From NCBI GenBank assembly GCA_026390695.1, contig JAPLFL010000126.1, forward strand, positions 1 through 64,000: a DNA stretch of 64,000 bases, in the 5' to 3' direction. Positions 5,834-63,500 of the stretch are shown piece by piece (the first letter of the stretch is position 1; each line of letters begins with the position of its first letter). The position numbers and the translations under genes are program-made. The notes beneath the pieces were generated by a model that made no database searches, was not told where the DNA came from, and saw nothing but the letters and a program-made list of their open reading frames with translations. Source of the stretch: Candidatus Kapaibacterium sp. GTDB taxonomy: Bacteria; Bacteroidota; Ignavibacteria; Kapaibacteriales; UBA2268.

Positions 5834-5839
5834 AAGAAC

Positions 5840-6403
5840 CTATATATTTTCATAATATTGTTTTGCATCCGTAAGTTTTTCATTGTTTCCTATTTTATTG
5901 AAACTTGGATTTTCAAATTCCTTCTTTAACTCTTCTAATAATTGCTTTTCGGTTGGCAAATATAATTGATATTTACTCGCAAGAATATTATTTTTCTCTT
6001 CTGGCAGTGTAAATTTTACGACTGCATCGTTTTTAACAGCTTCAGCAAGATAAAATTCACGTTTATCACCATTATCCATTCGAATCAGTAATTTGTATTG
6101 ACTCCAATTCAATTGCGAATACAGTGTATTCGCAATTGGGAAAATTCTATAAAATTGACGGCTGAGTTCAATCTGCCTTCGTGAAAAGCCGCTTCCATAC
6201 TCCGGTTCAATTTGCTCAGAAATATATTTGGTTAAATATTCTCCGTATTTTGCTCTATCTTGTCCTTGTTGTACTTCTTCGAATATTCGTTGTCCAATAT
6301 GCCAATACATTAATGTTCTTTCACGATCGACAGCTCTTATTGCATTCTCTCTTGAAAGATTTATGATCCCTTCGATATCTGAAATTATAGATTTTTTAAG
6401 CAT
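5840..6403 (-). pseudogene. YhcG/DUF1016-family protein with the nuclease core deleted
   Basis: The N-terminal half matches the DUF1016 (YhcG_N) domain: RTLMYWHIGQRIFEE, EYGSGFSRRQIELSRQFY and the typical NWSQYKLLIRM. Full-length members run to about 340-370 residues with a PD-(D/E)XK nuclease domain. Here the chain passes from EFYLAEAVKN straight to DAVVKFTLPEE and ILASKYQLYLPTEKQLLEEL, which is the usual C-terminal tail. About 150 residues, the whole nuclease core, are missing in frame; both flanks normally contain a KN pair, a likely junction. The open frame begins at 6424, but the methionine at 6403 (MLKKSIISDIEG) is the natural start and overlaps the DinD fragment by 8 bases. It may still make a DNA- or protein-binding remnant of 187 residues. 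Confidence 0.8.
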
Positions 6404-6875
6404 AAATCTCCAAACCACGTTCATAGATAATTCCAGATAATTTCTTTTCTGATTTAGTAAGTTTTTCTCGTGCAGTTATTCTATCAATATCAAGAAGCCT
6501 TCTTTCAATAATCTCTTGTTTCCGGGTTTGAACGGCAAAATAAGTTTGGGCAAAAGCAATTTCACTTTTAGAAGAATCTCCGTTCTGGGCTATAAGATAG
6601 CACCCGTAGCGTGTGAGGGCAATATCCGTTATCTCTCTTTTGGCTCCCTTAGCTGCTTCAATCAACTTGTTGATTTCAACAAAATGATCTGAAACAGCAA
6701 CAGAACTTGTTTCACATGCAATTTTGGCTTTATCAATTACTTTTAGAAAGTTTCTCCATTCTGTATATGAAAATATTTCCTGAAGTTCACGCGCGCTCCA
6801 GCATTCTATTCCATCAAGAATAAGACAGGCATTTTCAAATTTTTCAAAAAGTTCAGTTATTATTTCTTTTTTCAT
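6396..6875 (-). pseudogene. DinD-like DNA-damage-inducible protein, C-terminally truncated
   Basis: 159 residues match the N-terminal half of DinD: ECWSARELQEIFSYTEWRNF, LTRYGCYLIAQNGDSSKSEIAFAQTYFAVQTRKQE, then REKLTKSEKKLSGIIYERG. Family members continue from this point for about another 120 residues. Here five unrelated residues and a stop follow, running into the YhcG start. A deletion has therefore joined the middle of dinD to the front of yhcG. DinD interferes with RecA filaments in E. coli, and DinD-like genes are often carried in restriction-modification loci. Function of the stub is doubtful. Confidence 0.75.
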
Positions 6876-6906
6876 AATAGTTTCTAAACCTAATAGTTTG
6901 AATCAT

Positions 6907-7073
6907 TCATTTCTTCTTCCGTTTCACTTTTTCATTCACAAACAATCCGGCGGTATATTTTTCATAAAGTTCATAGAGGAGTTCTATTCTTTTTGTTTAT
7001 TTTGCAAAAGGCTCTCCCATTCTCTTGAAAAATCAATCACTCTTTGTTTTATTTCATTCCATGATAAAGCCAT
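6907..7073 (-). pseudogene. Collapsed second copy of the MmeI-like gene (both ends only)
   Basis: From an ATG at 7073 the minus strand encodes MALSWNEIKQRVIDFSREWE, which matches residues 1-20 of the intact enzyme at 2882-5833 except for two residues. It then jumps into EPFAK, a stop, TKRIELLYELYEKYTAGLF and VNEKVKRKKK, matching the last ~35 residues of the intact protein. Some 930 codons are missing, there is a frame change at the junction and a nonsense codon. This is what is left of a paralogous gene upstream of dinD and yhcG. It is too broken for an ORF finder. Bases 7074-7199 hold nothing recognisable. Confidence 0.85.
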
Positions 7074-7199
7074 CTGATTATCTAATCCCGTATATAACTA
7101 TCTTTGATTTACCAAAAATAGATATAAACGATTAAATTTCTTCTTTATTTTGAAAGATAATCATTAATTTTGCTTCAAAAGCTGACTATTTAATTTTGT

Positions 7200-9227
7200 T
7201 TATTCCTTAATAAATTTGAAGCGCTTGTTATTTATCGAAATAAAATACATTCCATCAGGTAAGTCTGTTATATCAATTGTTCCAATATTAAGCCCAGACT
7301 TGACCATCTCCCCCAACAAAGAATAAATCTCTATTTTACAAATATTTAAATCGCCCTTAATATTTATTAAGGTACTTGCTGGGTTTGGATAAAATGAATA
7401 TTCCGAGCTAAATGAATTTGCATCATTAACATCTGAATAATTATTGAACGTAAAACTGTTAAATCCCAATGGCGCTGTCATAGGCTTAGTTATTGTTTTA
7501 CCGTTCCACGACGTTGCACTTATATAGTATTCAATTACTCCGCTTGCCGAATCATTCTTTAAAACGCCTGTAAAATAGGTTTTATCATACATAATATTTA
7601 ATAATATAAGGTCTCTCCATGTTGACTCGCCCTTATATCTCCATTTAGCTACTGCAGATTTTATTCCACTCTTATTTTTAATTGTTGCATTAATTAAATA
7701 TTGAGTATTACCTTTCTGTGTGCTTTTAAGCGGAAAATCAAGAATTCTTATAGGATTATCGGCTGGAATTTGTTTAGTAATGCAATGTATCGCACCTCCG
7801 AATCCATCGAATGCCCGAATATCAATTGGAATAATATTATAGCCAGGATAAGCCGACCTAATAGAATCAAGATCAGTCAGCATGCTTTGATAATCACCTG
7901 TTTTATCATCGGCGAAAACAGGTTGGATAATAGATTTATTAAGAATTAAATGGTTGCTATAGGAACGAGTATATTTTTGGTAATCAGCAGAAGTCTTATA
8001 CCATGATCCATCATCTTTTTTTGGTAAGGGAATAAAATGTTTCAAATATTTATCGCCATCGGTTCTAATAATAGACGAAATTGTATCTACATTTTTAGAG
8101 ACAGTCTTATAATCGGTGAATGTTTTCATTGCATCAGGATACTGAGCAAAAACAAAATTATTCGGATCAAACAAATCTGCATATAAATCAATATGACCGG
8201 TTCCTCCATCGAATTGAAGCATGGGAAGAATTTTAAGAGAATTCAAATTTAATATATTGGTTAAATTATCTTTTAATTGCTGTGTGGTTAAAGGATTCCT
8301 ATCTGTAGGATAAACCTTTCCGTCGCTTCCAAGTGTATCCTGACCGAAATTATTCTGATTTTCAATTGTTACTGCAGTCGATGTAAATAAATTCCCTACT
8401 CCATCCAATAAAATATTTCCACCTTCAAAACAAACTGAATTTGTAAAAACAGGAATTCCTAACTTATTACCGATATAAATCGGAATGCTATCATCCAATG
8501 GTCTGCCGGTATAATATTCAAAATCAATAAAACCAAGCGAATCTAATTGACTATAATAAAATCCAACAGGCCCGCAATCGCGGTACCAGAACGAATTGCC
8601 GGAATTTACGAAAAATTTGGCATGTTGCAAAGGCCATGATTTCGATGCCATATATCTCTGAACAACAGCAGTATCAGCATCCTCCCAAACATTAATCCAT
8701 ACTTCGGCGTTGGAATCGATAGCATGAATGAGTTTGGAAAAAACTTCTGGCATCGGGCTGACAGCGAATGTATCAATGATTGATATAACCGGATAAATAT
8801 CATATTGTCCGGTTTGATTATTATAAACGGCTCCTATACCTTTAAATTCAGGTTCACCGGCATCCTGTTGATTCTCATCATAAGTCAGATATGGCCAAGT
8901 AACCATGACTGCTTTAACTTCCTCGAACTCACCGGGGAAAGTCATCATTGCAGGTAAAACTTGATTATTTAGGCTTTGTACCCGAGGATTTTGGTTTTTT
9001 TTTATGGCTTTTGATTTGTTGGAATTAGCTTTTGATCGATTAGCTTTGTCAGGAATGCGTTTGTGCGATTTTTTATATTTATCGATGAAATCTTGTCGGG
9101 ACATTGATTGAGATTTCTTAACTGCTGAATTTATTTGGTCTTGTTTAACTTCCTTTTCTGTTTTTGCCAACATAAAAGCTGAACTTATAAGAAAAATGCA
9201 AACAAAGATTGTAATTTTTTTGAACAT
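7200..9227 (-). CDS. Secreted peptidyl-arginine / agmatine deiminase-like enzyme with T9SS sorting domain
   Basis: 675 residues from the preferred start at 9227, where AAAGGG lies upstream and a signal peptide MFKKITIFVCIFLISSAFML begins; the open frame extends 16 codons further. After a basic, low-complexity linker comes a Porphyromonas-type deiminase fold (PF04371) with FWYRDCGP, GGTGHIDLYADL and the catalytic Cys near residue 482 in GGAIHCITK. This family hydrolyses guanidino groups, turning arginine to citrulline or agmatine to carbamoylputrescine. A beta domain and a type A T9SS C-terminal signal follow (FYPNPASTLINI ... LPDGMYFISI ... FKFIKE). Secretion and surface attachment resemble P. 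gingivalis PPAD, but the substrate here is not proven. Monocistronic by spacing. Confidence 0.88.
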   Translation of the reverse strand: MFKKITIFVCIFLISSAFMLAKTEKEVKQDQINSAVKKSQSMSRQDFIDKYKKSHKRIPDKANRSKANSNKSKAIKKNQNPRVQSLNNQVLPAMMTFPGEFEEVKAVMVTWPYLTYDENQQDAGEPEFKGIGAVYNNQTGQYDIYPVISIIDTFAVSPMPEVFSKLIHAIDSNAEVWINVWEDADTAVVQRYMASKSWPLQHAKFFVNSGNSFWYRDCGPVGFYYSQLDSLGFIDFEYYTGRPLDDSIPIYIGNKLGIPVFTNSVCFEGGNILLDGVGNLFTSTAVTIENQNNFGQDTLGSDGKVYPTDRNPLTTQQLKDNLTNILNLNSLKILPMLQFDGGTGHIDLYADLFDPNNFVFAQYPDAMKTFTDYKTVSKNVDTISSIIRTDGDKYLKHFIPLPKKDDGSWYKTSADYQKYTRSYSNHLILNKSIIQPVFADDKTGDYQSMLTDLDSIRSAYPGYNIIPIDIRAFDGFGGAIHCITKQIPADNPIRILDFPLKSTQKGNTQYLINATIKNKSGIKSAVAKWRYKGESTWRDLILLNIMYDKTYFTGVLKNDSASGVIEYYISATSWNGKTITKPMTAPLGFNSFTFNNYSDVNDANSFSSEYSFYPNPASTLINIKGDLNICKIEIYSLLGEMVKSGLNIGTIDITDLPDGMYFISINNKRFKFIKE

Positions 9228-9317
9228 TTTATCGCCCTTTATATTTATTTTACTTAAATTTTCAATATTTTTCAATTACAAATTAAATACACATAACGAA
9301 CATGTTTGTTAGATATT

Positions 9318-32815: not shown

Positions 32816-33475
32816 TCAAACTTCCTTTGGAACAAAATCAAGAATATATGTCGGGGTAAAAGATTTAGCATCTGTGAAAGTGGAATTTAAATATAACGAG
32901 ACAGCTTTCCGGGCAATTGTTGAAGCATTTAAAATCTCAGAAATATTTAACCATCTGGAATCCTGTGGTTTTAAATTTTGCTGACATAAAAATAGGGTTT
33001 TTTCTGCATTGAAAGAATTCAATACATCCATTGTTGAGGTTAAAACCTCGGTCAAAGGTGACGAATCTGTATTAAATGTTTGAATATAAATGTTATCCTT
33101 GTGAGATGGGATTGCAACAACAATTTGATCATAAAAAGAGCAGTTTGTCAAATTGCAAGCTTGTTCAGCCACTGCTTCCAAAGTTGGTACGGCAATGAAT
33201 TTAGGAGAATTACCGAAACATAGTCCTTTTGCTAAGGCTGCACCGATTCTTAATCCTGTGAACGAACCGGGACCGGCACTTACTGCAACAGCATGGATGT
33301 CAGTAATTTTCAAATTGAAGTCAGGAAGTATCCGGTTCACATATTCGGATAATAATCGATCGTGACTATTTGTAATGTATGCAGAATATTCAGCTATTAA
33401 TTTATTTCTTTCTGTGAGGCTAATACTGCAAATTGTTCCAGAGCTTTCAATAGCTAATATAATTGGTTCTGTCAA
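32816..33475 (-). CDS. tsaB: tRNA threonylcarbamoyladenosine biosynthesis protein TsaB
   Basis: 219 residues with the ASKHA opening ILAIESSGTICSISL and the signature VSAGPGSFTGLRIGAALAKG. TsaB is the inactive paralogue that holds TsaD (Kae1) in the complex making the t6A37 base of ANN-reading tRNAs. Length is typical. It begins 27 bases after the CheZ-like gene. Confidence 0.95.
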   Translation of the reverse strand: MTEPIILAIESSGTICSISLTERNKLIAEYSAYITNSHDRLLSEYVNRILPDFNLKITDIHAVAVSAGPGSFTGLRIGAALAKGLCFGNSPKFIAVPTLEAVAEQACNLTNCSFYDQIVVAIPSHKDNIYIQTFNTDSSPLTEVLTSTMDVLNSFNAEKTLFLCQQNLKPQDSRWLNISEILNASTIARKAVSLYLNSTFTDAKSFTPTYILDFVPKEV

Positions 33476-33502: not shown

Positions 33503-34471
33503 CTAATTTGCAAAAAGTGCGTCAATATCGTCAAGATCAATTTCTTCGTCTGCATCGGTTCCGGTATCAAATAGAGAATTAATATCATCTTGAGAAACAG
33601 TCTCATTTCCTGAATCTGATACATCGCTAAAAGCAACTTCGGAATTAGAACCGGAAAATAAAGCGTCAATATTTGCTGAGTCAAGATTATCTTCCATATC
33701 AGATTCGTCAAGAGTACCATCTGCCATTTTTTGCATGAACGAATCCACATCCCTCTGACGTGTCTCTTTTGATATAATTGCATTAATTGCATGAGGATCA
33801 AATGCAATATCACGGTGCATTTTACTTATCATTGAACTACTGCTACTGACCATATCGGAAAATTCACTTGTATTATAAGAAGCAAGAATTTCGGCAAGTC
33901 TTTTGTGAATGGAGGTAATCAAATGATTTACCGCAGCAATTTGCTGAGAAGTGATATCCTGCACCTGCAGGGCCATCATAATATTTGTCAGATCATTATT
34001 AAAATCTGTAATATGATTGTTAATTACATTATTAATCGAGTTATCTGACTGATCAGCCAAGTTTGAGGCAGCACAAAGATTTTTCAGATTAACAGCTAAT
34101 GATATAATATGAGTTGAATTATTCTGATGAGGCTGACTCAGTAAGGCTTCGGAAAGAAGATTTGCCTGTTCCTTCAAATCATTCAGAGTCTTAAAAGAAG
34201 AATTAAGTTCATTTGTAAATATCCCAAGTTTTGATAAAAGGCTGTCAACAGTATTTAAAATCTCAGTGGTGGCTGATTCCGTAGCTTCAGTAACTTTAAT
34301 AAGTTTGGAACTTGCCGAAGGCATTTTTTTAATATTATCTTCAATTGAATGATTAATATTCTTCACTATAGGAGCTATCTCCGAAGCAAAAATCAGAACA
34401 TCTTCCAAAAATTTTACTGCTTTTAAATTATCAACTTTTTCTGTGAGTTCCGCCAACAAATGTTCACTCAT
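33503..34471 (-). CDS. CheZ-like chemotaxis phosphatase with repeated FliM-like C-terminal motifs
   Basis: 322 residues. A long helical part (about 1-190) includes MMALQVQDITSQQIAAVNHL; the D-x3-Q pair Asp172/Gln176 matches catalytic Asp143/Gln147 of E. coli CheZ, which hydrolyses CheY-phosphate. An acidic linker follows. Three repeats then appear: NIDALF at 267-272, SQDDINSLF at 293-301 and DIDALF at 315-320. The phrase SQD-(E/D)-I-(D/N)-(A/S)-L is the N-terminal CheY-binding motif of FliM, and CheZ also ends in a CheY-binding helix. So the tail looks like a multivalent CheY tether. It sits between an ABC exporter and tsaB, away from other chemotaxis genes. Confidence 0.78.
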   Translation of the reverse strand: MSEHLLAELTEKVDNLKAVKFLEDVLIFASEIAPIVKNINHSIEDNIKKMPSASSKLIKVTEATESATTEILNTVDSLLSKLGIFTNELNSSFKTLNDLKEQANLLSEALLSQPHQNNSTHIISLAVNLKNLCAASNLADQSDNSINNVINNHITDFNNDLTNIMMALQVQDITSQQIAAVNHLITSIHKRLAEILASYNTSEFSDMVSSSSSMISKMHRDIAFDPHAINAIISKETRQRDVDSFMQKMADGTLDESDMEDNLDSANIDALFSGSNSEVAFSDVSDSGNETVSQDDINSLFDTGTDADEEIDLDDIDALFAN

Positions 34472-34535: not shown

Positions 34536-35657
34536 TTATGAAGATACTTTTCTATATCTCCATACTGATAGAATAAGCATAACCATACCATATACAGTTA
34601 AAATCCAGACCTGCTGCAACACATCAAAGAATCCTGCACCTTTTAAAATTACTCTTCGCATAATTTCAATAAAATGAGATATAGGATTAAATAGTGTTAC
34701 AATCTGCGCCCAGTGCGGCATGGATTCAATCGGAGTAAATAAACCGCTCATTAGAATAAAAATTACTACAAAAAACCATGATATAAACATTGCTTGCTGC
34801 TGAGTTTCGGTTACTGTGGAAACAAAAAGAGCGAATGATAGCGCTACAATGAGATATATAGAAGCAAGGCCAAAAATTAGAAAAATATTTCCAACTATTG
34901 GAATATGAAAAAGCACTTTCCCTAAAAATAAGCCGAGAGCAAGGTCAAACATTGCAATAATCCAGAATGGCACTAACTTTCCGGTTATAAACTGATATTT
35001 TTTAATGGGCGTCACATTCAATTGCTCAATAGTTCCCATTTCCTTTTCTTTGACTATATTCATTGAAGTTAGGAACATACCAATAATTGTCACCAGCACA
35101 ACCAGAATGCCCGGTACCATGTAAAATTTAAAATTCAATTCAGGATTATACCAGTATCTCTCCTTTACTGTAATCGTTGAAATAGTAGGCTGAGTCTGTA
35201 TTAGTCTCATACTTTTAACAAGTTCTTTGTTATAATCATAAATAATTTGCGCTGCATAATTCTGTATAATACCGGCAGCAGCGCCATCCACAGCGTTTAA
35301 TATAATTTGTATTTCCGGGAATTCCGATCTTGAAATATTACGTTCAAAGCCCCGTGGTATAATCAGAGCCATTTTTGCGATATTCTTATCAATTTCCTGA
35401 AAAGCTAATTTTTCTGAATTATAATCGGAAACAAATTTGAATCTCCCTGTAGAAGCGAACTTATCGACTAAACTTCTCGAACTGGAACTTTTATCATAGT
35501 CCACCAATGTTACATAAACCAATTTCACTTCAAAATTTGCCGCAAAAACCAGCACCAGAAGCTGAACAATAGGCACAAAGAATATTATCGGCAGCATTTG
35601 TTTATTGCGCCTGATCTGAAGAAATTCTTTCTGTATTAGAAATAATATTGTTCTCAT
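34536..35657 (-). CDS. ABC-2 type exporter permease (YbhR/YbhS-like)
   Basis: 373 residues: one N-terminal helix, a ~150-residue extracytoplasmic domain (KLVYVTLVDYDKSSSSRSLV ...), then five helices. KEKEMGTIEQLNVTPI is the coupling motif of this family. It pairs with the permease upstream; the two are 16 bases apart. With two ATPase genes they form a YbhFSR-type exporter of drugs or lipids. The missing piece is the periplasmic HlyD-like adaptor (YbhG), not seen nearby. Confidence 0.88.
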   Translation of the reverse strand: MRTILFLIQKEFLQIRRNKQMLPIIFFVPIVQLLVLVFAANFEVKLVYVTLVDYDKSSSSRSLVDKFASTGRFKFVSDYNSEKLAFQEIDKNIAKMALIIPRGFERNISRSEFPEIQIILNAVDGAAAGIIQNYAAQIIYDYNKELVKSMRLIQTQPTISTITVKERYWYNPELNFKFYMVPGILVVLVTIIGMFLTSMNIVKEKEMGTIEQLNVTPIKKYQFITGKLVPFWIIAMFDLALGLFLGKVLFHIPIVGNIFLIFGLASIYLIVALSFALFVSTVTETQQQAMFISWFFVVIFILMSGLFTPIESMPHWAQIVTLFNPISHFIEIMRRVILKGAGFFDVLQQVWILTVYGMVMLILSVWRYRKVSS

Positions 35658-35673
35658 AATCTCAAATCCTGCA

Positions 35674-36783
35674 TCAGTCCAGACGAATTTTAAATTTTTT
35701 CATACTAACTATTAAAAAGAATACCATCATACTGATTAAAATTAGTGTTTCATTTCGGATATAACTGAATCCGAGCCCTTTTAGCATAATATTGCGAGTG
35801 ATTATCAAATACCATTTTGCAGGTATGAAATTGCTAATAAACTGCAATGGTAGCGGCATATTTTCAGTTGGGAATATAAATCCCGATAAAAGTGTTGTTG
35901 GAAGTAAGAGACCTGCTAAACTTACCATCAATGCTACCTGCTGCGTCTTTGCAAAAGTTGAAATCATAATTCCTAATGAAAGCGCTGTTCCCAAATAAAT
36001 TAATGTTTCAAACAAAAGGAGAATGAAACTACCCTTGAATGGAACTCCAAACACATAGACTCCGAGCGCCAGGACAGAAAAAGCATTTAATAGCGCAAGT
36101 AGTGTATAAGGAATAACTTTGCCTATAATTATAATAGATGGCTTCAGCGGCGATACAAGCAGCACTTCCATTGTTCCTGTTTCTTTTTCCTTGGTTATAG
36201 CTATAGAAGTCATCAAAGCTGATACTAACATTAGAATTAGCGCCAGAAGCCCCGGAACAAACATATATACACTTTTCATCTCAGGATTATAAAGCATTTT
36301 TATTTGTGGAGTCACCATCCATCCGGCTTTTGAGAGCTTATTAATTTTTGTATTCTGATAATCTGCAATAATAGAGCTTATATACCCATATAATAAATTA
36401 GAGATATTAGGATCACTGGCATCTATCAGGAATTGCACATCTGCATTGCCTGTACGCTCTAATTGCTTGGAAAATTCAGGCGCAAAGCACACCACTACTT
36501 TATACTTTCCTTGCCTGAACCCAGCTTCAATCTCAGATTCGTTACTAATATAATTTGTAAGTTTAAAATACTGCGATGAGAGCAACTTTTGAGATATTTC
36601 ACAACTTATATAATCCTTTGATCGGTCATAAATAGCAATATTTGCATCATTTACTTCAGTCCTAACTGCATATCCGAATATTAGTAGCTGCACTGGCGGC
36701 ATTCCGAATAGAACAAGAAGTGTTCTGTAATCTCTGAATATATGTAAAAATTCTTTCTTTACAAATTGAATAAAAGTGTACAA
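35674..36783 (-). CDS. ABC-2 type exporter permease (YbhS-like)
   Basis: 369 residues with the same topology as its partner: first helix after LRVLFGMPPVQLLIFGYA-like sequence, large outer domain, and five C-terminal helices. KEKETGTMEVLLVSPLKPS is the coupling-helix motif and TTLLSGFIFPTENMPLPLQ is the family's hallmark. Starts 13 bases after the ATPase gene. Confidence 0.9.
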   Translation of the reverse strand: MYTFIQFVKKEFLHIFRDYRTLLVLFGMPPVQLLIFGYAVRTEVNDANIAIYDRSKDYISCEISQKLLSSQYFKLTNYISNESEIEAGFRQGKYKVVVCFAPEFSKQLERTGNADVQFLIDASDPNISNLLYGYISSIIADYQNTKINKLSKAGWMVTPQIKMLYNPEMKSVYMFVPGLLALILMLVSALMTSIAITKEKETGTMEVLLVSPLKPSIIIIGKVIPYTLLALLNAFSVLALGVYVFGVPFKGSFILLLFETLIYLGTALSLGIMISTFAKTQQVALMVSLAGLLLPTTLLSGFIFPTENMPLPLQFISNFIPAKWYLIITRNIMLKGLGFSYIRNETLILISMMVFFLIVSMKKFKIRLD

Positions 36784-36796
36784 AATTTATCTCCTT

Positions 36797-37546
36797 CTAT
36801 TGATTCAAAGCCATATTCGGTCGAGCAAGCCGAACAAATACATCATTAATACTTTTAACGTTGAATTGCTGCTTGAGCTTGCTTGGAGTGTCGATAGCAG
36901 CAATTTTACCATCAACCATAATTGAAACGCGGTCGCAATATTCTGCTTCATCCATATAATGAGTTGTTACAAAAATTGTTTTCCCTTCACTGACTGCTTC
37001 GTAAATCATATCCCAAAACTGTCTGCGCGTGATTGGATCAACTCCTCCGGTGGGTTCATCTAAAAATACAATTTTCGGATCATGGAACATCGCTACGGCA
37101 AAAGCCAGCTTCTGCCGCCATCCAAGCGGTAACGATGCAATTAATGAGTTTTTATAATCAATCAATTTCATTTTTGTAAGCAAAATATTTGTCTGTTCTT
37201 TTATGTGTTTATTGCTAAGACCATAAATTCCTCCGTATAGTCGTATGTTTTCAGCAATTGTTAGATCTTCATATAGCGAAAATCTCTGACTCATGTATCC
37301 GATATTTTTTTTAATTTTTTCTGATTGACGAAATGCGTCAAATCCTGCTACAGTTGCCTCTCCCGAACTTGGAAGTAATAATCCTGTCAGCATTTTTATC
37401 GCCGTTGTTTTGCCTGCACCGTTTGCACCAAGGAATCCAAATATCTCACCTTCACCTACTTCAAAAGATATATCATTAACTGCAATGAAGCTACCAAAGC
37501 GCTTTGTCAGGTTTTCAACTTTTATAACTTTTTTATCACTAATCAT
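36797..37546 (-). CDS. ABC transporter ATPase with altered signature motif
   Basis: 249 residues. Walker A GFLGANGAGKTTAIK, Q-loop GYMSQRFSLYEDLT, Walker B IVFLDEPTGGVDP and the switch His in FVTTHYMDEAEYC are all intact. The LSGGQ signature is replaced by ASLPLGWRQKLAFA, a variant common in the second half of YbhF-type fusions. Its ATG overlaps the stop of the other ATPase (ATGA). Works with that ATPase as a heterodimer. Confidence 0.9.
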   Translation of the reverse strand: MISDKKVIKVENLTKRFGSFIAVNDISFEVGEGEIFGFLGANGAGKTTAIKMLTGLLLPSSGEATVAGFDAFRQSEKIKKNIGYMSQRFSLYEDLTIAENIRLYGGIYGLSNKHIKEQTNILLTKMKLIDYKNSLIASLPLGWRQKLAFAVAMFHDPKIVFLDEPTGGVDPITRRQFWDMIYEAVSEGKTIFVTTHYMDEAEYCDRVSIMVDGKIAAIDTPSKLKQQFNVKSINDVFVRLARPNMALNQ

Positions 37547-38469
37547 CTTGTCATAAGCTCCATAAATACATCTTCGATATTGGGAGAAATTATATTTATC
37601 TCGAAATTTTCAACTGCTTTTAATCTCAGATATTCTGAAATTTTATCTTTATCAGCGTTTTCAGATCTGCATGAAAAGTGAACATTCTCACCAAATAGAA
37701 AAGCTGTTTTGCAATCAGAATAATTTCTAAGCAATTTCAATAATGAATATTTATCTTCTGCTGTGATTGAAAATAATTTACTTTCCGATTTGGCAATTAT
37801 AGCTTCCGGTGTATTTATATCAAGAATTTTTCCTTGAGAAATAAGAGCTATCCTTTCGCACAGACTTGCTTCATCCATATATGGTGTAGAAACGATAATG
37901 GTTATTCCTTGATTTTTCAAATTTTTAAGCATTTCCCAGAATTCTGTCCGAGAAACTGCATCCACACCGGTTGTCGGCTCATCAAGAACTAATAAATCGG
38001 GTTTATGGATTAATGCACACGAAAGAGCTAATTTTTGTTTCATTCCACCGGATAAAGCGCCAGCCTTGCGCTTTTTGAAAGGTTCAATGTGAGAATAAAT
38101 ATCTTTAATCAGATGGTAATTTTTAGCAATTGTTGATCCGAATATTGATGCAAAAAATGATAGATTTTCCTCAACCGATAAATCAGGATAAAGCGAAAAT
38201 CTGCCGGGCATATATCCGATTCTTTGCCTGATTGATTTATAATCTTTCTTTGTATCAAGCCCGAAAACGCTCACCCTGCCTGAGTCGGGCAATAACAGAG
38301 TATTAATAATTCTAAAAAGAGATGTCTTACCGGCTCCATCGGGTCCAATAAATCCGAATATTTCGCCCTCTTTTACCTCAAAGCTAATATCAGACAAAAC
38401 CTGCACGGCTTTATACGATTTATTTAAATTTGAAACATGGACAATTTTATCAGCAATCATTTTAATCAA
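37543..38469 (-). CDS. ABC transporter ATPase (YbhF first-half type)
   Basis: 308 residues with Walker A GFIGPDGAGKTSLFRI, Q-loop GYMPGRFSLYPDLSVEEN, a true signature LSGGMKQKLAL, Walker B LLVLDEPTTGVDA and ThrPro in place of the usual switch His (VSTPYMDEA). The loss of the switch His here and of the signature in the partner are complementary, typical of asymmetric ATPase pairs. In E. coli the two halves are one fused YbhF protein; here they are separate overlapping genes. Confidence 0.9.
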   Translation of the reverse strand: MIKMIADKIVHVSNLNKSYKAVQVLSDISFEVKEGEIFGFIGPDGAGKTSLFRIINTLLLPDSGRVSVFGLDTKKDYKSIRQRIGYMPGRFSLYPDLSVEENLSFFASIFGSTIAKNYHLIKDIYSHIEPFKKRKAGALSGGMKQKLALSCALIHKPDLLVLDEPTTGVDAVSRTEFWEMLKNLKNQGITIIVSTPYMDEASLCERIALISQGKILDINTPEAIIAKSESKLFSITAEDKYSLLKLLRNYSDCKTAFLFGENVHFSCRSENADKDKISEYLRLKAVENFEINIISPNIEDVFMELMTR

Positions 38470-39317: not shown

Positions 39318-41336
39318 ATGAAGAAAAGCCTGTTAATAAGTATATTAATTTTTTTTATTGTATTTGAATATAGTAATAGTGAGACATTTAGAGTATTTTT
39401 GAAGGATAAAGGCCCCGAGAGCTTCATAAAAGGGAAGGCTATTTACGACAGCACTGCTAAACTATTATCAAAACGCTGTCTGGCTCGAAGATCCAAGCTA
39501 ATAAGCCAAGAACCTTATTTCTCAATAACAGACGCTCCGGTTTACAGTCCCTACATTAAAACTATAGAATTAATCGGTGCTAAAACGCTTCTAAAGCTAC
39601 GTTGGAGAAATTATATTGTAGTCGGTTGTGATTCTTCATTAATTAATTATATACGGATTCTTCCTTTTGTCAGAGCAGTACAGAGAACAGGAGAAAAGGC
39701 GAATTTATTGACAAGTCCAATGTTAGGAAAGCCTGAAAGATTAAATACAATTTGCAACTACAGCAATGATTGCGGGAAATTCGATTATGGACCATCGTTT
39801 TTACAAAGCTCTTTGCTTAATATTCAAGAGGTACACCGAATGGGCATTACCGGAGATGGTGTTTTAGTTGGATTTCTGGATAATGGCTTCAGGTGGCGAT
39901 TCCACGAAGCCACAAAAAATGCAAACGTTATTGCTGAATATGATTTTATAAATAATGATTCCGTTACATCAAATCAAGCCGGTGATGCCGACGGACAAGA
40001 TGGGCACGGTCATCTTTGTTTTTCGACGGTTGCTGGTTTTATGCAGGGGAAACTTATAGGAGTGGCTCCAAATGCAAGTTTCATCCTTGCAAAGACTGAA
40101 GATGATAAATCAGAGAAGAGGATTGAAGAGGATAATTATGCAGCCGGTATCGAATGGTTTGAAGCTATGGGTGCGGACATTTCATCTTCCTCACTGGGTT
40201 ATAAAACTTATGATTCAACCGATATAAGTGATGACTTTCTGGATTTTGACGGTAAAACAACTATATCTGCTCGAGCCATAAACAGAGCATTTTCTTTGGG
40301 TATGGTCTGTATTTCAGCAGCCGGGAATAGCGGCCCTTCGCCAATGTCCATAATTACACCTGCCGATGCAGACGGAGCAATTGCTGTTGCCGCCATAGAT
40401 ACAAGTGGGGCGGCAGCCGGATTTTCTTCTCGTGGCCCGGCTAATAATCGCGAAGTAAAACCAAACTTAGCAGCTCTTGGAAGCCGTGTTGTTGCTGCCG
40501 ATGGTAGAGATTCACTGTCTTATGTATATGCGGGAGGAACTTCACTGGCGACTCCTCAAATTGCAGGATTGGCAGCATTAATCCTTTCAACTTTCCCTGA
40601 ATTATCTCCATCAGAACTGCGTGACGCTTTGCAAACAGTATCATCACAGGCTACCAAACCTGATTCAATTCTCGGATACGGTGTCCCAGATATTTATAGA
40701 ACATTGCATTATTTAGGAATTATTATTGGCCCAATTTCATATTACAAAGTTGCTGATAAGCTAAGAATTATTTCTTATATCAAAGCTGATCCGAAATTAA
40801 CACAAGTGGCACTCAATATCAAATTCGGCAGTGGCTCTGACTTTAAAGCGTATAATATGAAAGAATCAGTAATACATGACCAATTTTGGACTGATATTCC
40901 AATTTCATCCTTCGATAATAAACCGGCTCAGGCTTACATTTCAGCTCAACATATCGGAGATCTGCGAAGAATGCCCAATAACTGGAATGAATATGTTGAA
41001 ATCAATCCATCGATTGAGTTTATTCATTGCGGAATTGATCCAAACGAGATATTACGTTATCCTGACAATACTGACATTGCTTATTTGAATCCATCAGTTA
41101 TCAATTCTGGAATTAATGACTTAACAGTTAGCATTTCTGTTGCTGACGAATCGGAAGTTGAAATTGTAATTCTTAACTCAATCGGTCAGTTCATTACACG
41201 TTATCATTTTGATAAAAGCCAGAAGGGATTACAACATTTTGCTCTCAAGTTCCCGAACTGGGCAAGTGGAGCTTATTTTATTCACTATGCCGCCGGAGTA
41301 CATAAAGGCATCCTGCCATTTATCATTGTAAAATAA
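39318..41336 (+). CDS. Secreted subtilisin-like serine protease with T9SS sorting domain
   Basis: 672 residues with signal peptide MKKSLLISILIFFIVFEYSN. A propeptide-like region (about 25-165) leads to an S8 domain: catalytic Asp in GFLDNGF near 185, His in QDGHGHLCFST near 230 and Ser in AGGTSLATPQIAGLAAL near 407, with oxyanion Asn in SAAGNSGP. The last ~90 residues (INSGINDLTVSISVADESEV ... GAYFIHYAAGVHKGIL) resemble a type A T9SS signal, though the usual NP motif is replaced. An extracellular peptidase. Divergent from the SDR gene. Confidence 0.9.
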   Translation: MKKSLLISILIFFIVFEYSNSETFRVFLKDKGPESFIKGKAIYDSTAKLLSKRCLARRSKLISQEPYFSITDAPVYSPYIKTIELIGAKTLLKLRWRNYIVVGCDSSLINYIRILPFVRAVQRTGEKANLLTSPMLGKPERLNTICNYSNDCGKFDYGPSFLQSSLLNIQEVHRMGITGDGVLVGFLDNGFRWRFHEATKNANVIAEYDFINNDSVTSNQAGDADGQDGHGHLCFSTVAGFMQGKLIGVAPNASFILAKTEDDKSEKRIEEDNYAAGIEWFEAMGADISSSSLGYKTYDSTDISDDFLDFDGKTTISARAINRAFSLGMVCISAAGNSGPSPMSIITPADADGAIAVAAIDTSGAAAGFSSRGPANNREVKPNLAALGSRVVAADGRDSLSYVYAGGTSLATPQIAGLAALILSTFPELSPSELRDALQTVSSQATKPDSILGYGVPDIYRTLHYLGIIIGPISYYKVADKLRIISYIKADPKLTQVALNIKFGSGSDFKAYNMKESVIHDQFWTDIPISSFDNKPAQAYISAQHIGDLRRMPNNWNEYVEINPSIEFIHCGIDPNEILRYPDNTDIAYLNPSVINSGINDLTVSISVADESEVEIVILNSIGQFITRYHFDKSQKGLQHFALKFPNWASGAYFIHYAAGVHKGILPFIIVK

Positions 41337-56238: not shown

Positions 56239-57441
56239 TTATATCTTCATAAATTTACAGACACTATCCCCTATTTTTACAAAATATAATCCCGATGAAT
56301 ATTGAGATATATTAATCCGATAACTTTGAGTCATCGGATTAATTACTTCAACAAGCTCACCAAAAACATTATAAATTCCAAAACTTGTAATTGTTGATGT
56401 GTAATTTGTAATTTCAATGAATTCGTTTGCAGGGTTGGGACTTATAAATTCTCTTGAATTTTTATTAGGTTCTATATATCCTGATTTTATCGGAGAGTTT
56501 GCTACGGTCAGATCATCAATCCACATAGTTTGATCAACCGGTGATCCATCCCCGATATACGGTGCAATTAAAAACTGATTTAATTTCATATCGGGGAACT
56601 GAGCCGTTCGGAATAAAATATTATCATAGCTAATTAATAATTTGGAGTCATACCAATATCTTATTTTTCCATCTGGAATCCCTTTACCTGAAGAAATACT
56701 ATTTAATTTGAAATATACTTCCACATGATGCCAGTCATTTTTATAATATTGTCCCGGAAAGTCAGTAAAATAGACAGAATCCATATCCCAGATCCGGGCA
56801 CTGTAATAATAATTAGCATCATATTTAAAGCAATCGCGGCGGTCATATCCTCCGATGATTCCATTGCACGCAGCAACCGAATGATTTTCCGTAAATTGAT
56901 AGCTATTAAAATCACCATTACAGCCGATAAATCCGTTATTATTTTGTAAAATACAATTCTGGTCAACATTTTTGCTGTCCTGCAGTGCAATCAGTGGACG
57001 CCCTTCATTTTGTTCAATGTACAATGTAAGATGTGTAATTGCCGGACCGATATATTTATCATCTACATTGGTCATAATATTAAATTCATGCGGGTGATAA
57101 GGTTTATTCGAGCCTTCCCAGTTAGTACTGTATTTAACCCAATAACCAACATACATCTCATCTGTTTCCGTGAAAAGATGGCGGCTTGGAGTGCCTGCGG
57201 CACAGCTTCTTTGTCCTTTTTTAAATAAACATTCAAAGCAAGCATTACTGCCTTTAATATGTTCTGTCGTTGAAATGGAACATTTCGAGCCATCATACCA
57301 ACCTCGAGATGCAAAATCATTATCTTCAAAAGTTTCAATGAAGAAAATTGTTTGAGAAAATGAATAATTACTTGTGAATATAATAAATAAAACAAAAAAT
57401 ATACACATGGAATCTGTCAATATTTTTCTTGGGCTAATCAC
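56239..57441 (-). CDS. Secreted protein of jelly-roll type with T9SS sorting domain
   Basis: 400 residues with a signal peptide (CIFFVLFIIFTSNYSFSQ). Residues ~30-320 look like a concanavalin/polysaccharide-lyase-like beta fold: TFEDNDFASRGWYDGSKCSI, YVGYWVKYSTNW, DWHHVEVYFKLN and ILFRTAQFPDMKLNQF fit carbohydrate-binding or lyase folds. Ten cysteines are present. The C-terminus FISPNPANEFIEITNYTST ... YSSGLYFVKIGDSVCKFMKI is a clear type A T9SS signal. Enzyme activity is not proven. Placed upstream of the glycan genes on the same strand. Confidence 0.8.
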   Translation of the reverse strand: MISPRKILTDSMCIFFVLFIIFTSNYSFSQTIFFIETFEDNDFASRGWYDGSKCSISTTEHIKGSNACFECLFKKGQRSCAAGTPSRHLFTETDEMYVGYWVKYSTNWEGSNKPYHPHEFNIMTNVDDKYIGPAITHLTLYIEQNEGRPLIALQDSKNVDQNCILQNNNGFIGCNGDFNSYQFTENHSVAACNGIIGGYDRRDCFKYDANYYYSARIWDMDSVYFTDFPGQYYKNDWHHVEVYFKLNSISSGKGIPDGKIRYWYDSKLLISYDNILFRTAQFPDMKLNQFLIAPYIGDGSPVDQTMWIDDLTVANSPIKSGYIEPNKNSREFISPNPANEFIEITNYTSTITSFGIYNVFGELVEVINPMTQSYRINISQYSSGLYFVKIGDSVCKFMKI

Positions 57442-57562: not shown

Positions 57563-60500
57563 TTACTTCACATTCACCAAAACCCTTATTTTCATAACTC
57601 CCATTCCGGAGAAATTCTCCATTGCTTTACCTATCACTGTGCCAAATCTTATTTTATTAGGATCACCCTTCATCGCTACACCGGGAATTGAAGAAGTGAC
57701 AAGTAAATCTCCGATTTTAATATCTCCGCCTTCACCGCAAACTTTAGTTGGAATTACTCCAACAACACCCATTGGCACAAAACTGGACAAATCCGCATCA
57801 ATATTTTTTTCTGCAAGAGTAACACCTGCTCTTGTTGCATAAACTCCTGACACAAGCTGAGAATATGCTTCAGATGATTTCATAATCTTACGCTCACCTT
57901 CAGGAGAAAGAGCAAGGACATCACCTGGCTCATAATCCGATGCCAATCCGTTAACTTCAAAAGCTTCAGCAATATCAGCACCAAAAATTTGAAGAGTGCC
58001 GTTAAAATACCCTTTACCATTTTTATCAATACGTGCTTGATTGCCAAAAGAATTTTTGAAAACAGCAAAGTTATTATTAGTTGTTGTACTGACAGTATTA
58101 GAGGATTGAGTACCCGTCGGACTGTAAACATATAAAGCATTTCCACTTACACTTGGAGTTTCAACATAAAGAATATTAGCAGTATTGCTTGAATTATAAT
58201 TTATTATACTTTCTCCGGAAGTAAAGCCATAATTATTAACCTGCAAAACTGTCGAAATATTTGAACTACTATTCTGGAAAGTTGCAGCCTTACCGGATCC
58301 GTTATTAATAGCATAAAGAGCAGATCCAGAACCATTTGAATATCCATAAAGTGCAGAACCTGTTCCAGCAGTACTTGCATAAACTGCATTATTAGAATTT
58401 GAGGAACTGGAAATTCTAAAATCTCCGGCATTACCCGTTCCGCTTGTTGCTGCATACAAAACTGAAGAAGTATTTGATGAATTTGAAATCGCAAAGTTAC
58501 CCGCACTACCCGTTCCGCTACCGGAAACTGATCCTACTACCGCATTAGCACTTGAAGCATAAGTAATTTCACCTTGAACGGCAGCTCCCGAACCCCAAGT
58601 TGAGCCATAAATTGCTGCCTGAGAATTAGAACTATTGTATATTGATGAAGAAACACCTCTTCCTGTTCCGTTTTGATAACCAGATAATAAATAACCCGAA
58701 CCGGCTACTGAAGCACTGATAACGTTTCCATTACCGCCTGCAGCACCGCTAAAAAGATTTCCATTACCAGAAGTAACTGCATTAATTAAATCTCCGTAAC
58801 TTGATGAAGTTAATTTTAAAACGACATTAGGAGTATTAGTAGTCATTTCTACAACAGGATTGTAAGTTTCAGAATATTGAGAAGAATGGCCGCCGTTACT
58901 TATTCCGAAATATGCAGCCCTACCTCCACCATAAGAATTAACCGAATGAACTACATCTCCATATCCATTCGATAATATATCAATTGCACTGCTTGTGCTT
59001 GAACTATTGCTTATCTGGAATTTGCCAGCACGGCCAGTTCCACTTGAACTTGCAGTGAAAGCATCCCCTGATCCACTTGCATTAAAAGAAATTAAACTGC
59101 CAGTTCCGTTTGTTGTTAATTCAACAACTGAAGCTGTACTTGAAGTGCTTGTTAATTCAAATTTTGCAGCAGGCCCTGATCCAGCGTTAGAGACATAAAG
59201 TGCTGGATTAGAATTGGACGGACTGAGGTTTGATACCTGAACACCAACACCATAGCCTGTATGTTCGGTATATAAAGCAGCTCCGGATCCATTGGTTGTA
59301 ATTGATACAGCATTTGCAGAATTTCCGGCATTTCCGATTGCAAAATTTGCAGCAGGGCCTGCTGTAGTAGTTGACACAAATAGAGCTGGCTGTGTATTTG
59401 ATGGACTGGAACTTGATATTTGTGCACCATAGCCATATCCTGCATTTTCAGCATATAAAGCAGCACCTGAACCACTCGTAGTTGTGAATAATGAATTATT
59501 ATTATTATTATTCCCAAGTTCAAAGCGACCTGCATTTCCTGTACCATTATTCACTGCTCTTATTGCATTGCCGCTTCCGGCTGTTGTTGCATAGATAGCA
59601 TTTCCTACACTTGTAGTTGAAGAGAGTTCAAAGTAACCTGCCGAAATAGGTTCTGGATTAAAAACATCAGCATCACAATAAACATGTAATGCAGAACCAG
59701 CGCCATGAGCTCCAATTTTAACTGCATAGTCAGTCGCGTTCCCATTCCCTTGATCAAATGTAGCGACACTGCTGCCATAACCAGCATTACTTGCCTTAAT
59801 TGCTTCGCCGTTGCCAATAGTTGAAATCAGTAATGCAGGCTGTGTATTGGATGGGCTGGAAATAGAAATTTGTGCTCCAATTCCTGTTCCTGTATTTTCA
59901 GCATATAAAGCAGCTCCTGAACCATTATTAGCAGTTGATAATGAATTTGCAGAACCTTGAGAATTATTTATTTTAAATTCTCCAGCCATACCCGAACCAG
60001 TATGTTCAACATATAAGGCATTTCCAGTTCCAACACTTGTAACATTTATTACTTTTCCTGCATTTCCTGAATTAGTTATCGCAAAATCTGCCGCATTTGC
60101 AGAAGTGTTCATACCAGTTTGCACAACGTTTAATGCAGATGCACTACCAGTAGCTTGTGCATCTATTGTTGGAAGCACTCCACTGGAAATGGCAGTGATA
60201 GCATTAGCCCCGCTTTGAAAATATCCTGCGGTTGAATATGGTGAATTTGAATAAACTCCATTGCCATTATTGTGATTTTCAATATGAATTCCATCACCAT
60301 ATTTATAATTTTCTATATATATACCGTGGCCTGTACCATTGTAACAATCATTGTAACAACCCTGCATGATTTCTAAGCCATTACTTGAGCCAAGATTATT
60401 GAAAAATTCTCCATAAGTATTGTTAATTCTAAGTACCGAAGAATTGTTATCACCATTATTATTAGTAAATTCAGCAGCGTGTCCCATTCCAACAGTATTA

Positions 60501-63500
60501 AATAATGCAACTGTTTCGGTACTTGATGAATTAGTTATCTGGAAAACTCCGGCTTTGCCGGTGCCATTGGAAGTTGATGTGAAAACATTACCAGATCCGT
60601 TTGATATAAATTCCATCAAACTACCATTACCGGCTGTTACAAGTTCCATAACAGAAGCATTACTTGATGGATTAGTAATCTCAAATCTTGCTACTGGGTT
60701 GGTTCCAGCAGTAGTTGCTTTAATAGCATATCCATTTCCATGAGTACTTGCATCAATAACATTTCCACTATTTGCTGCACCGGTGATACTAAAACTGGCA
60801 GCGGGAACACTTGTTGGATAACCGTTATAAATATTTGATGTTTGTGACACATCCAATGCAGCCATTGTATTAGCATTTGATGTGATCTTTACTGTTACTG
60901 CTGTAGTGCATTGAGGACAGCTTGGACTCTGGTTTGTCTCAAAATAACCGGCAATTCCCTTACCAGTAGAAGAAGCAGCCAGAGCATTCCCATCACCCGA
61001 AGTAGAAAGATTCATTAGCGAACCATGTCCCGAATTAGCCAGTTCTAATACTGAGGCATAACTTGAAGGATTTGTGATTTGAAACTTTGCCGCAGGGCCA
61101 GTACCGTTAGTTGTCGCCTGAATACTCGGCTGATTATTAGAACTATTATAAATTTCGAAGGATCCTGAATTACCTAAACCATAATTCTTAGCTGTAATAG
61201 CAGAACCGGATCCCTCAGCATCTGCCCATAGTGCACTTCCATCACCCGGAGTATAAGTATAAATAGCATCTGAACTATTTGTAGAACTTCTAATTTCAAA
61301 ATCACCTGCAGAACCATTCTCATTATTAAAATTATTAGCCGAAATCGTTGAGTTATAACCATCTGTACTTGCATCAACGGCAGATCCATTTCCCGCAGTA
61401 TAAGCATAAATAGCAGAATTATTATTAGTGGTCGGACCATTTGGATTGTAAACTTCAAAATCACCTGCGGAACCGCTATTTCCTTCATGATGAGCATAAA
61501 TAACTAATCCATTGCCAGTAGTACTTGCATTAATGGCAGAACCGTTTCCTACTGTACTTGCATTAATTACATTTCCATAATTTGTAGATTTAGAGATTGA
61601 AAAAGTTGAAGCGTGGTAAGAGCCGTCAGCCTCGGATGATTGTACTACTTCCAGTGCCGAACCTTGTCCGGCTGCTTCAGTTCTTGTTGTAAAACCTGCA
61701 TATCCATTTGAGTATGCAAATACAGCATTATTCGGATTATTAATATTGTTAATTACAAATTGTCCGACTCTTCCCATATCAGACTGAGCAAAAACTGCAT
61801 CTCCGGCAGCAGAGTGCGCATATAGAGCAGCAGCAGTATTATCAGGGTTAGCTATAACAAATTGTCCTGCTGATCCAAAACCACTGTTCTCTGCGTAAAT
61901 TGCTGATCCGGTACCAATGTTTTTTGCATAAACTGCAGATCCGGTATTCCATGAATCTGTGATTTCAAATTTAGCTGCGTGTGCTGGTTGTGTTGTATGT
62001 CCGGTTTGAAAGACTTCGAGTGATCCTGCATAAGGAGAGTTGGAAGTAATTTTTACAGTTACGGATTGTGAACATTCCGAACAAATATTATTAGTTTCAA
62101 AAACGGCAGCAGCACCTTCGGCAGTTGATAATACCTGCAATGCATTCCCAACTCCCGATGTTGTTAAATTCATTAAACTTCCCTTACCATTTGAGGCAAG
62201 TTCAAGAACCGTAGCAGTACTTGCAGTATTAGCAATCTCTAAATGTGCAGCAGGGCCAGTTCCAGCGGTAACAGCATTAATAGCCGGATTCGGATTATTC
62301 CAGTGTGATAACAGGAATGTACCGGCATAACCTAAACCGTCATGTTCTGCAAAAATAGCTGATGTTCCTTCGCTGCTATTATTATCTACTATAAAATCAC
62401 CTGCATCACCTAATGCCGAATTTAATGTATATAATGTTGGATAAGTATTCTCATTACCATTATCCTTGAATTGTGTTTGTAAAAATGCACCGTAACGATT
62501 ACCCCAATTATCTATTGTCAAACCGTTGCCGTTTCCTGTTGGCTTTATCTTCAGAGCGTCGCCGTTGCTGTTGGTTTCGACGTATATAGCATTAGCGCTG
62601 CTCCCTTGGTTATTAATTTGGCTATAAATACTTGGTCCGGTACCATAATTAGTAATATTTAAAGCACTGGCAGCATTATAACTACTAACCCATAAATCCA
62701 AAGCACTATTACTTGATCCGTAAGCATCAAACTCAGCAACAGCAGAATTATTTGAATATGAAGAAGCATAAAGTCCGGTTCCACCCATTGTGTTACGGAC
62801 ATCAATAGAAACCCCATGACCATAAGAATTATTATCAATACTAAGAACGGGTGAATAGCTGCCTTCATTTGGAATTGAAAAATAAGCAGCACCTCCGCCA
62901 CCTTCCTGATTACTTGTATTTTCAGCAAAAAGAGTGGAATTTGATCCGTTATTGGTTGCATATAAAGCATTGTTATTACCATTAACATTATCTATTTCAA
63001 ATCTTCCTGCTTTCCCTGTACCTGTTGATTTTGCACTTATTGCATCTCCGGCTCCAGTGGCATTAAACAGCATCAAAGCTCCGCTACCTGCATTGGCAAG
63101 TTCAATTGTCGGGGCTGTACTCAGTGGATTTGAAACCTCAAATTTAGCGGCAGATCCTGTTCCATCGGTAGTAGCCAGCAAAGCGGCAGAACTGCTAATC
63201 TCATTATCAATCACAAATTCGCCTGCTAATCCGGATCCGTAAGATATTGTTCGTAGAGCAGATGATCCATTCGCTCCGGCTGCTGTATAGAATAATGCGG
63301 CAGAACCACCTATCTCACTTGAATTTTTCGCAATAATTGCAGGATAGGATGACGCTGTTGTTGCATAAATTGCTGGATTATTATTATATAAGTTAGTTAT
63401 TTCAAAATAACCTGCTGCTCCACTTCCATTACTATTAAATCCGTGATGAACCACATGGAGTGCATCGCCTGTTGAATTTGTTGAAATATCAACTGCATTG

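Follow-up and report, generated by a model that had tools for sequence, protein, structure and literature searches.

CheZ, the textbook enzyme that turns off CheY, the messenger of chemotaxis, has a single docking helix in each chain. The locus described here, in a Candidatus Kapaibacterium genome, raises the question of what a CheZ-family gene standing apart from chemotaxis genes does with a tail that appears to hold three such helices. It lies in a window of 64,000 nucleotides (the whole stretch of DNA analysed), and its features and neighbours are listed in Table 1. An earlier note on this DNA had read the gene as a CheZ-like phosphatase with the catalytic pair Asp172/Gln176 and three FliM/CheZ-like motifs in an acidic tail.

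Table 1. Features of the orphan cheZ gene and of its neighbours in the window.
Feature	Position	Strand	Basis
Orphan CheZ-family CheY-P phosphatase (predicted), 322 aa	33503..34471	-	ORF; PF04344; one of the genome's two CheZ
Long two-helix hairpin core (predicted), residues 3-197	33881..34465	-	AlphaFold helices 3-112 and 119-197
Putative catalytic Asp172 (E. coli D143)	33956..33958	-	Alignment; D of DxxxQ in 68/68 homologues
Putative catalytic Gln176 (E. coli Q147)	33944..33946	-	Alignment; Q of DxxxQ in 68/68 homologues
Clade-specific conserved box HRDIAFDPHAI...RQRDVDSFM, residues 219-246, between core and tail; possibly a further motif	33734..33817	-	Conservation, n=27
Tail motif 1 DSANIDALF, residues 264-272, weakest match	33656..33682	-	7.9 bits; AlphaFold helix 265-273
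Tail motif 2 SQDDINSLF, residues 293-301	33569..33595	-	20.1 bits; AlphaFold helix 294-301
Tail motif 3 DLDDIDALF, residues 312-320, at the nearly universal C-terminal position	33512..33538	-	20.1 bits; AlphaFold helix 313-320
TsaB-type neighbour (TsaD/TsaB family), 27 nt downstream, unrelated function	32816..33475	-	PF00814, 9.6e-18
ABC-2 exporter operon, two permeases and two ATPases, upstream, unrelated function	34536..38469	-	Pfam

The open reading frame is intact and begins with ATG, and its product scores 44.4 bits against the CheZ model PF04344 (E=2.2e-11; curated cut-off 30.7), which bears out its assignment to the family. In a phmmer comparison with E. coli CheZ (1kmi_Z), residues 152-198 align with 123-169, a match that is weak alone (E=0.38), and D172 and Q176 fall on E. 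coli D143 and Q147; the catalytic pair had thus been placed correctly, in coordinates and residues alike. The AlphaFold model (mean pLDDT 65.8; hairpin helices about 60-80) predicts the long-helix hairpin expected of CheZ, a fold that pairs into a four-helix bundle in the family's dimers, followed by further short helices (201-223 and 226-232), a helix at 235-250 and a four-residue stub. When this low-confidence model was compared with the PDB by Foldseek, coiled-coil noise was returned, with nothing at E<=0.001 and CheZ not recovered, and a profile search of PDB sequences reached 1kmi only at E=0.18. By its profile and its catalytic residues, the protein is a CheZ and a predicted phosphatase.

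The tail is strongly acidic (net charge -22 over residues 246-322). We scored it with a matrix nine residues long, derived from the C-terminal motifs of further CheZ proteins with the window protein excluded, and recovered the three motifs that had been proposed. In 5000 shuffles of the 97-residue tail, sites of at least 8 bits averaged 0.017 and the observed counts were reached by none; motif 1, at only 7.9 bits, is the weakest claim of the three. The model places three isolated helices in the tail, at low to moderate confidence, and these coincide with the three motifs, the tail being otherwise disordered. Both the sequence and the predicted helices fit the FliM-N-type short helix SQx[DE]IDxL[LF], and the C-terminal CheY-binding helix of CheZ appears to be present in three copies as against one, with docking predicted. 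The tail therefore bears three probable FliM/CheZ-type CheY-docking motifs. None of them matches the SQDDIDALF consensus exactly, and the gene sits on a long branch, so the tail may be weakened or retuned. In the conserved box that precedes it, F224, D225 and Q239 are invariant among 27 sequences, and H219, R220, R238 and V242 are at least 90% conserved. The conserved RQxxVD segment after the AFDPDAV box, helical in the model (235-250), resembles the C-terminal SQDQVDDLL of E. coli CheZ and is a possible fourth CheY motif, offered as a lead only.

The genome (4.63 Mb in 129 contigs, rated 100% complete) encodes two CheZ proteins. The canonical cheZ belongs to a cheR-cheY-cheY-cheZ-cheA cluster, and its product carries one strong motif, NQDDIDALF, and one weaker, FDIDKLF. 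The second copy, that of the window, is an orphan: it stands between the exporter operon and the tsaB-type gene, and the ORFs scanned in the window include no further chemotaxis gene. The earlier note had described this setting accurately; it missed that the gene is a second copy and that multi-motif tails occur elsewhere in the phylum. It had also suggested looking for flagellar genes and had held that a genome lacking CheY or a flagellum would undo its reading. That objection fails because FliM, FliG, five flagellin-domain matches, two CheA and CheYs are all present. The FliM N-terminus begins MADVLSQYEIDSLLSEM, the same motif class as the CheZ tail, and the CheY of the canonical cluster, when aligned with its E. 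coli counterpart, keeps the DWNMP and YVVKPF segments and has the surface expected for docking. A second CheA cluster holds CheW, CheR, CheB and response regulators.

Orphan cheZ copies also occur in four other genomes (L085 in G021, L087/L037 in G004, L099 in G012 and L032/L161 in G010), with differing neighbours. TsaB was not found beside them and none of three exporter genes used as queries matched there, so a conserved orphan-cheZ neighbourhood of tsaB and ABC exporter was rejected. Promoter and terminator scans gave results near chance. A degenerate-codon scan of the window's own genome for DIxxLF (80 matches as against 45 in the reversed control) was too noisy for listing motif proteins, and the matches inspected were mostly short or unrelated ORFs; a tandem 21-base repeat encoding EINKLFQ in a short ORF (G000 C53:30551-30673, minus strand) looks like a DNA repeat and not a CheY motif array. 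Elsewhere in the window, we noted an MmeI-type restriction-modification protein (2882-6875, minus strand) with DUF1016_N and Bro-N proteins directly upstream. Type 9 (Por) secretion C-terminal sorting domains occur in the products of 7200-9275, 39318-41336 and 56239-57441, which comprise a peptidyl-arginine deiminase type, a subtilase (with a weak sorting-domain match) and one of no assigned type. A 2057-aa ORF (57563-63736, minus strand) has no Pfam match at E<=1e-5.

A search of genome contigs found the close relatives of the protein in Candidatus Kapaibacterium and in metagenome-assembled genomes of Ignavibacteria. In all 27 aligned proteins D172, Q176, F224, D225, Q239, D315, I316 and F320 are invariant, and because the last three of these belong to the final motif, that motif looks ancestral; it is nearly universal among motif-bearing homologues. 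The number of motifs is far more variable. At a threshold of 9 bits, which counts the window protein as having two, 68 proteins carry none (16), one (18), two (20), three (2), four (9), five (2) or seven (1). The conservation of the motifs that the earlier note had proposed to check is accordingly seen for the C-terminal one, whereas one-to-one conservation of all three is not, and having three motifs is best regarded as a single point within a range. Mapped on a quick tree, four states of copy number take 21 changes and the three-or-more state takes 8. In another family of the phylum (f26), SQDEIDALF recurs four or five times in CheZ, almost unchanged, which suggests separate expansions; in two of its loci (L134 and L136) five such repeats stand in tandem at the C-terminus. 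Within one protein, motif copies are 82% identical and their flanks 28-32%, and 34% of the identical residues are encoded by different codons; the copies thus seem to be kept by selection and not only recently copied. In the relative with seven motifs, five of the seven are predicted to be helical.

Proteins scoring zero are mostly of an Ignavibacteria type that lacks the tail, and the genes of several stand in adjacent pairs. In L038-L043 (e.g. L039:5929-6666 and 6713-7348), two adjacent divergent CheZ-like genes without a tail motif lie beside cheR and cheY, and such pairs possibly form heterodimers. Within the order, the CheZ of three genomes (G053 C125, G085 C42 and G086 C112) reach 183-195 bits against PF04344 where all others score far lower, a possible case of lateral transfer or contamination. 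Among the orphans, L085 carries four perfect motifs, L099 has none and L037/L087 have a degenerate motif only, so the array appears dispensable in some copies; the catalytic D and Q are retained in the window copy and in all orphans read. A clade of the window copy, L085 and L099 is supported at 99/90 in one tree and absent from a larger quick tree, and since the trees disagree and long branches meet, the orphans are only candidate orthologues of one another.

A profile search of the order found CheZ of the window kind in 51 of 122 genomes, including those of one family (f7) that the Pfam model had missed. In this family, neither FliM nor FliG was matched in any of nine genomes (completeness 86-99%), while G000 and other controls were matched in the same searches; PilT-family proteins, a candidate alternative output, gave nothing above the cut-off. 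Where the loci of the family were read, cheR, cheA and cheZ are retained and most have one cheY call or more, and in seven genomes (G041, G049, G056, G105, G106, G108 and G109; loci L154-L160) the chemotaxis cluster includes a three-motif CheZ. These are cluster proteins, at most possible orthologues of the window copy, and all seven read have three motif sites. Their pN/pS is 0.141 in the core, 0.121 in the motifs and 0.584 in the linkers (0.266, 0.091 and 0.013 for the three motif sites separately), ratios that are approximate because pS is near saturation; gaps amount to 1%, 0% and 26% in core, motifs and linkers. The motifs of this family are under purifying selection. As relatives carry from zero to seven motifs, among them a lineage with no detectable flagellar switch, the docking array looks to be a real and tunable part of the enzyme.

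CheY offers one and the same face to CheZ and to FliM (PMC3774744), and the affinity of CheY for the FliM N-terminus rises about 20-fold on phosphorylation (PMC7355467). CheZ activity has been reported to be cooperative in CheY-P, and the CheZ dimer has been modelled with up to two CheY-P bound (PMC2673030). We consider it probable (roughly 0.7) that the window gene encodes a CheY-P phosphatase, an orphan second CheZ, with a multivalent tail serving to capture CheY-P for the DxxxQ site. The three short tail helices would dock on the alpha4-beta5-alpha5 face of CheY-P, raising its local concentration near residues 172 and 176 of the long-helix core, where it would be dephosphorylated. If the protein dimerises like E. 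coli CheZ, each dimer would offer six motifs. Several motifs per chain could hold several CheY-P molecules and feed them to the active sites in turn, so that multivalency would give higher capture and possibly a steeper response to CheY-P, with motif duplication and loss tuning the copy number. For the window protein, we infer the binding of CheY-P, the dimerisation, the handing-over and the cooperativity.

An orphan with such a tail might instead act mainly by sequestering CheY-P in competition with FliM, with little or no phosphatase role. Its motifs are of the FliM class and the gene is divergent and apart from the che cluster, as this would have it, yet the retained catalytic residues of every orphan read argue for an enzyme, multi-motif tails are also found on cluster CheZ, and they occur in genomes without FliM or FliG, where no competition with FliM is possible. 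We regard sequestration as unlikely. It is comparably improbable that the partners of the motifs are other receiver domains (the second CheY of the cluster, or CheY-like domains in further proteins) and that the orphan serves another pathway, such as that of the second CheA cluster. The presence of that cluster, with its own response regulators, and of two different CheYs in the canonical one speaks for this; the motif class, being that of the genome's own FliM N-terminus, points to a motor-type CheY, and no genetic link joins the orphan to the second CheA cluster.

The long end branch, the drift of the window motifs from consensus and the motifless orphan in G012 would all suit a decaying paralogue, in which the tail motifs of a diverging duplicate would be vestiges. 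With a full-length frame, intact catalytic and box residues and an orphan (L085) bearing four perfect motifs to set against them, we find decay no easier to credit than the two preceding proposals. That the motifs are short acidic repeats arisen by chance and without function is strongly contradicted and hardly credible: an Asp-rich tail does favour strings like DIDALF, but no tail shuffle reached the observed counts and the motifs of relatives are under purifying selection.

The preferred reading, of a phosphatase with a capturing tail, has a wider and much more speculative extension, which we put forward as doubtful: the CheZ tails of Bacteroidota may be evolvable multivalent CheY-P traps in which the capacity or the steepness of CheY-P removal depends on how many motifs there are, and in the family without a FliM, FliG or PilT match the three-motif CheZ may control CheY-P for a non-flagellar output, e.g. 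gliding or type 9 secretion motors. The origin of CheZ cooperativity has long been debated, and a natural series of zero to seven docking motifs on one catalytic core makes it directly testable. A conserved three-site array without a detectable flagellar switch indicates that docking on the phosphatase is separable from docking on FliM, and prompts one to ask which output CheY-P governs in those genomes. In the accessible parts of the open-licence literature, we found no description of multi-motif CheZ arrays (DIDALF-type tails, Kapabacteria or Rhodothermus CheZ, multivalent CheY binding).

Among known systems, the remote and divergent CheZ orthologue HP0170 of Helicobacter pylori, recognised by its DxxxQ, is likened to the window protein by description only. 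The FliM N-terminal CheY-binding peptide shares an SQxEIDxLL-type motif (the FliM of the same genome has LSQYEIDSLLSEM), but FliM has a single N-terminal copy, for motor switching, whereas the window CheZ repeats it on a phosphatase tail and ends it in LF, not LL. The cluster CheZ of Kapaibacterium and Ignavibacteria have the same architecture, with one to seven SQDDIDALF-type motifs; they differ in lying in a cheR-cheY-cheY-cheZ-cheA cluster, outside which the window copy stands, and in mostly keeping a GQRVIPFLEE segment near the N-terminus that it lacks. With E. coli CheZ (PDB 1kmi) and other proteobacterial CheZ, the protein shares PF04344, the DxxxQ pair, the predicted long helical core and a predicted C-terminal CheY-docking helix. 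In proteobacterial CheZ the active Asp is preceded by AXXF(Y)Q (PMC7750401), which is absent here and replaced by ALQVQ (xLQVQ in most of the clade); this is a conserved proteobacterial feature that we do not treat as diagnostic for the whole CheZ family. CheZ is described as distributed among Proteobacteria (PMC7750401), whereas the window copy belongs to another phylum. The enzyme itself is already known; what sets this form apart is the multi-motif tail, with three predicted docking sites in the window protein and up to seven in its relatives as against the one C-terminal CheY-binding region of E. coli and proteobacterial CheZ.
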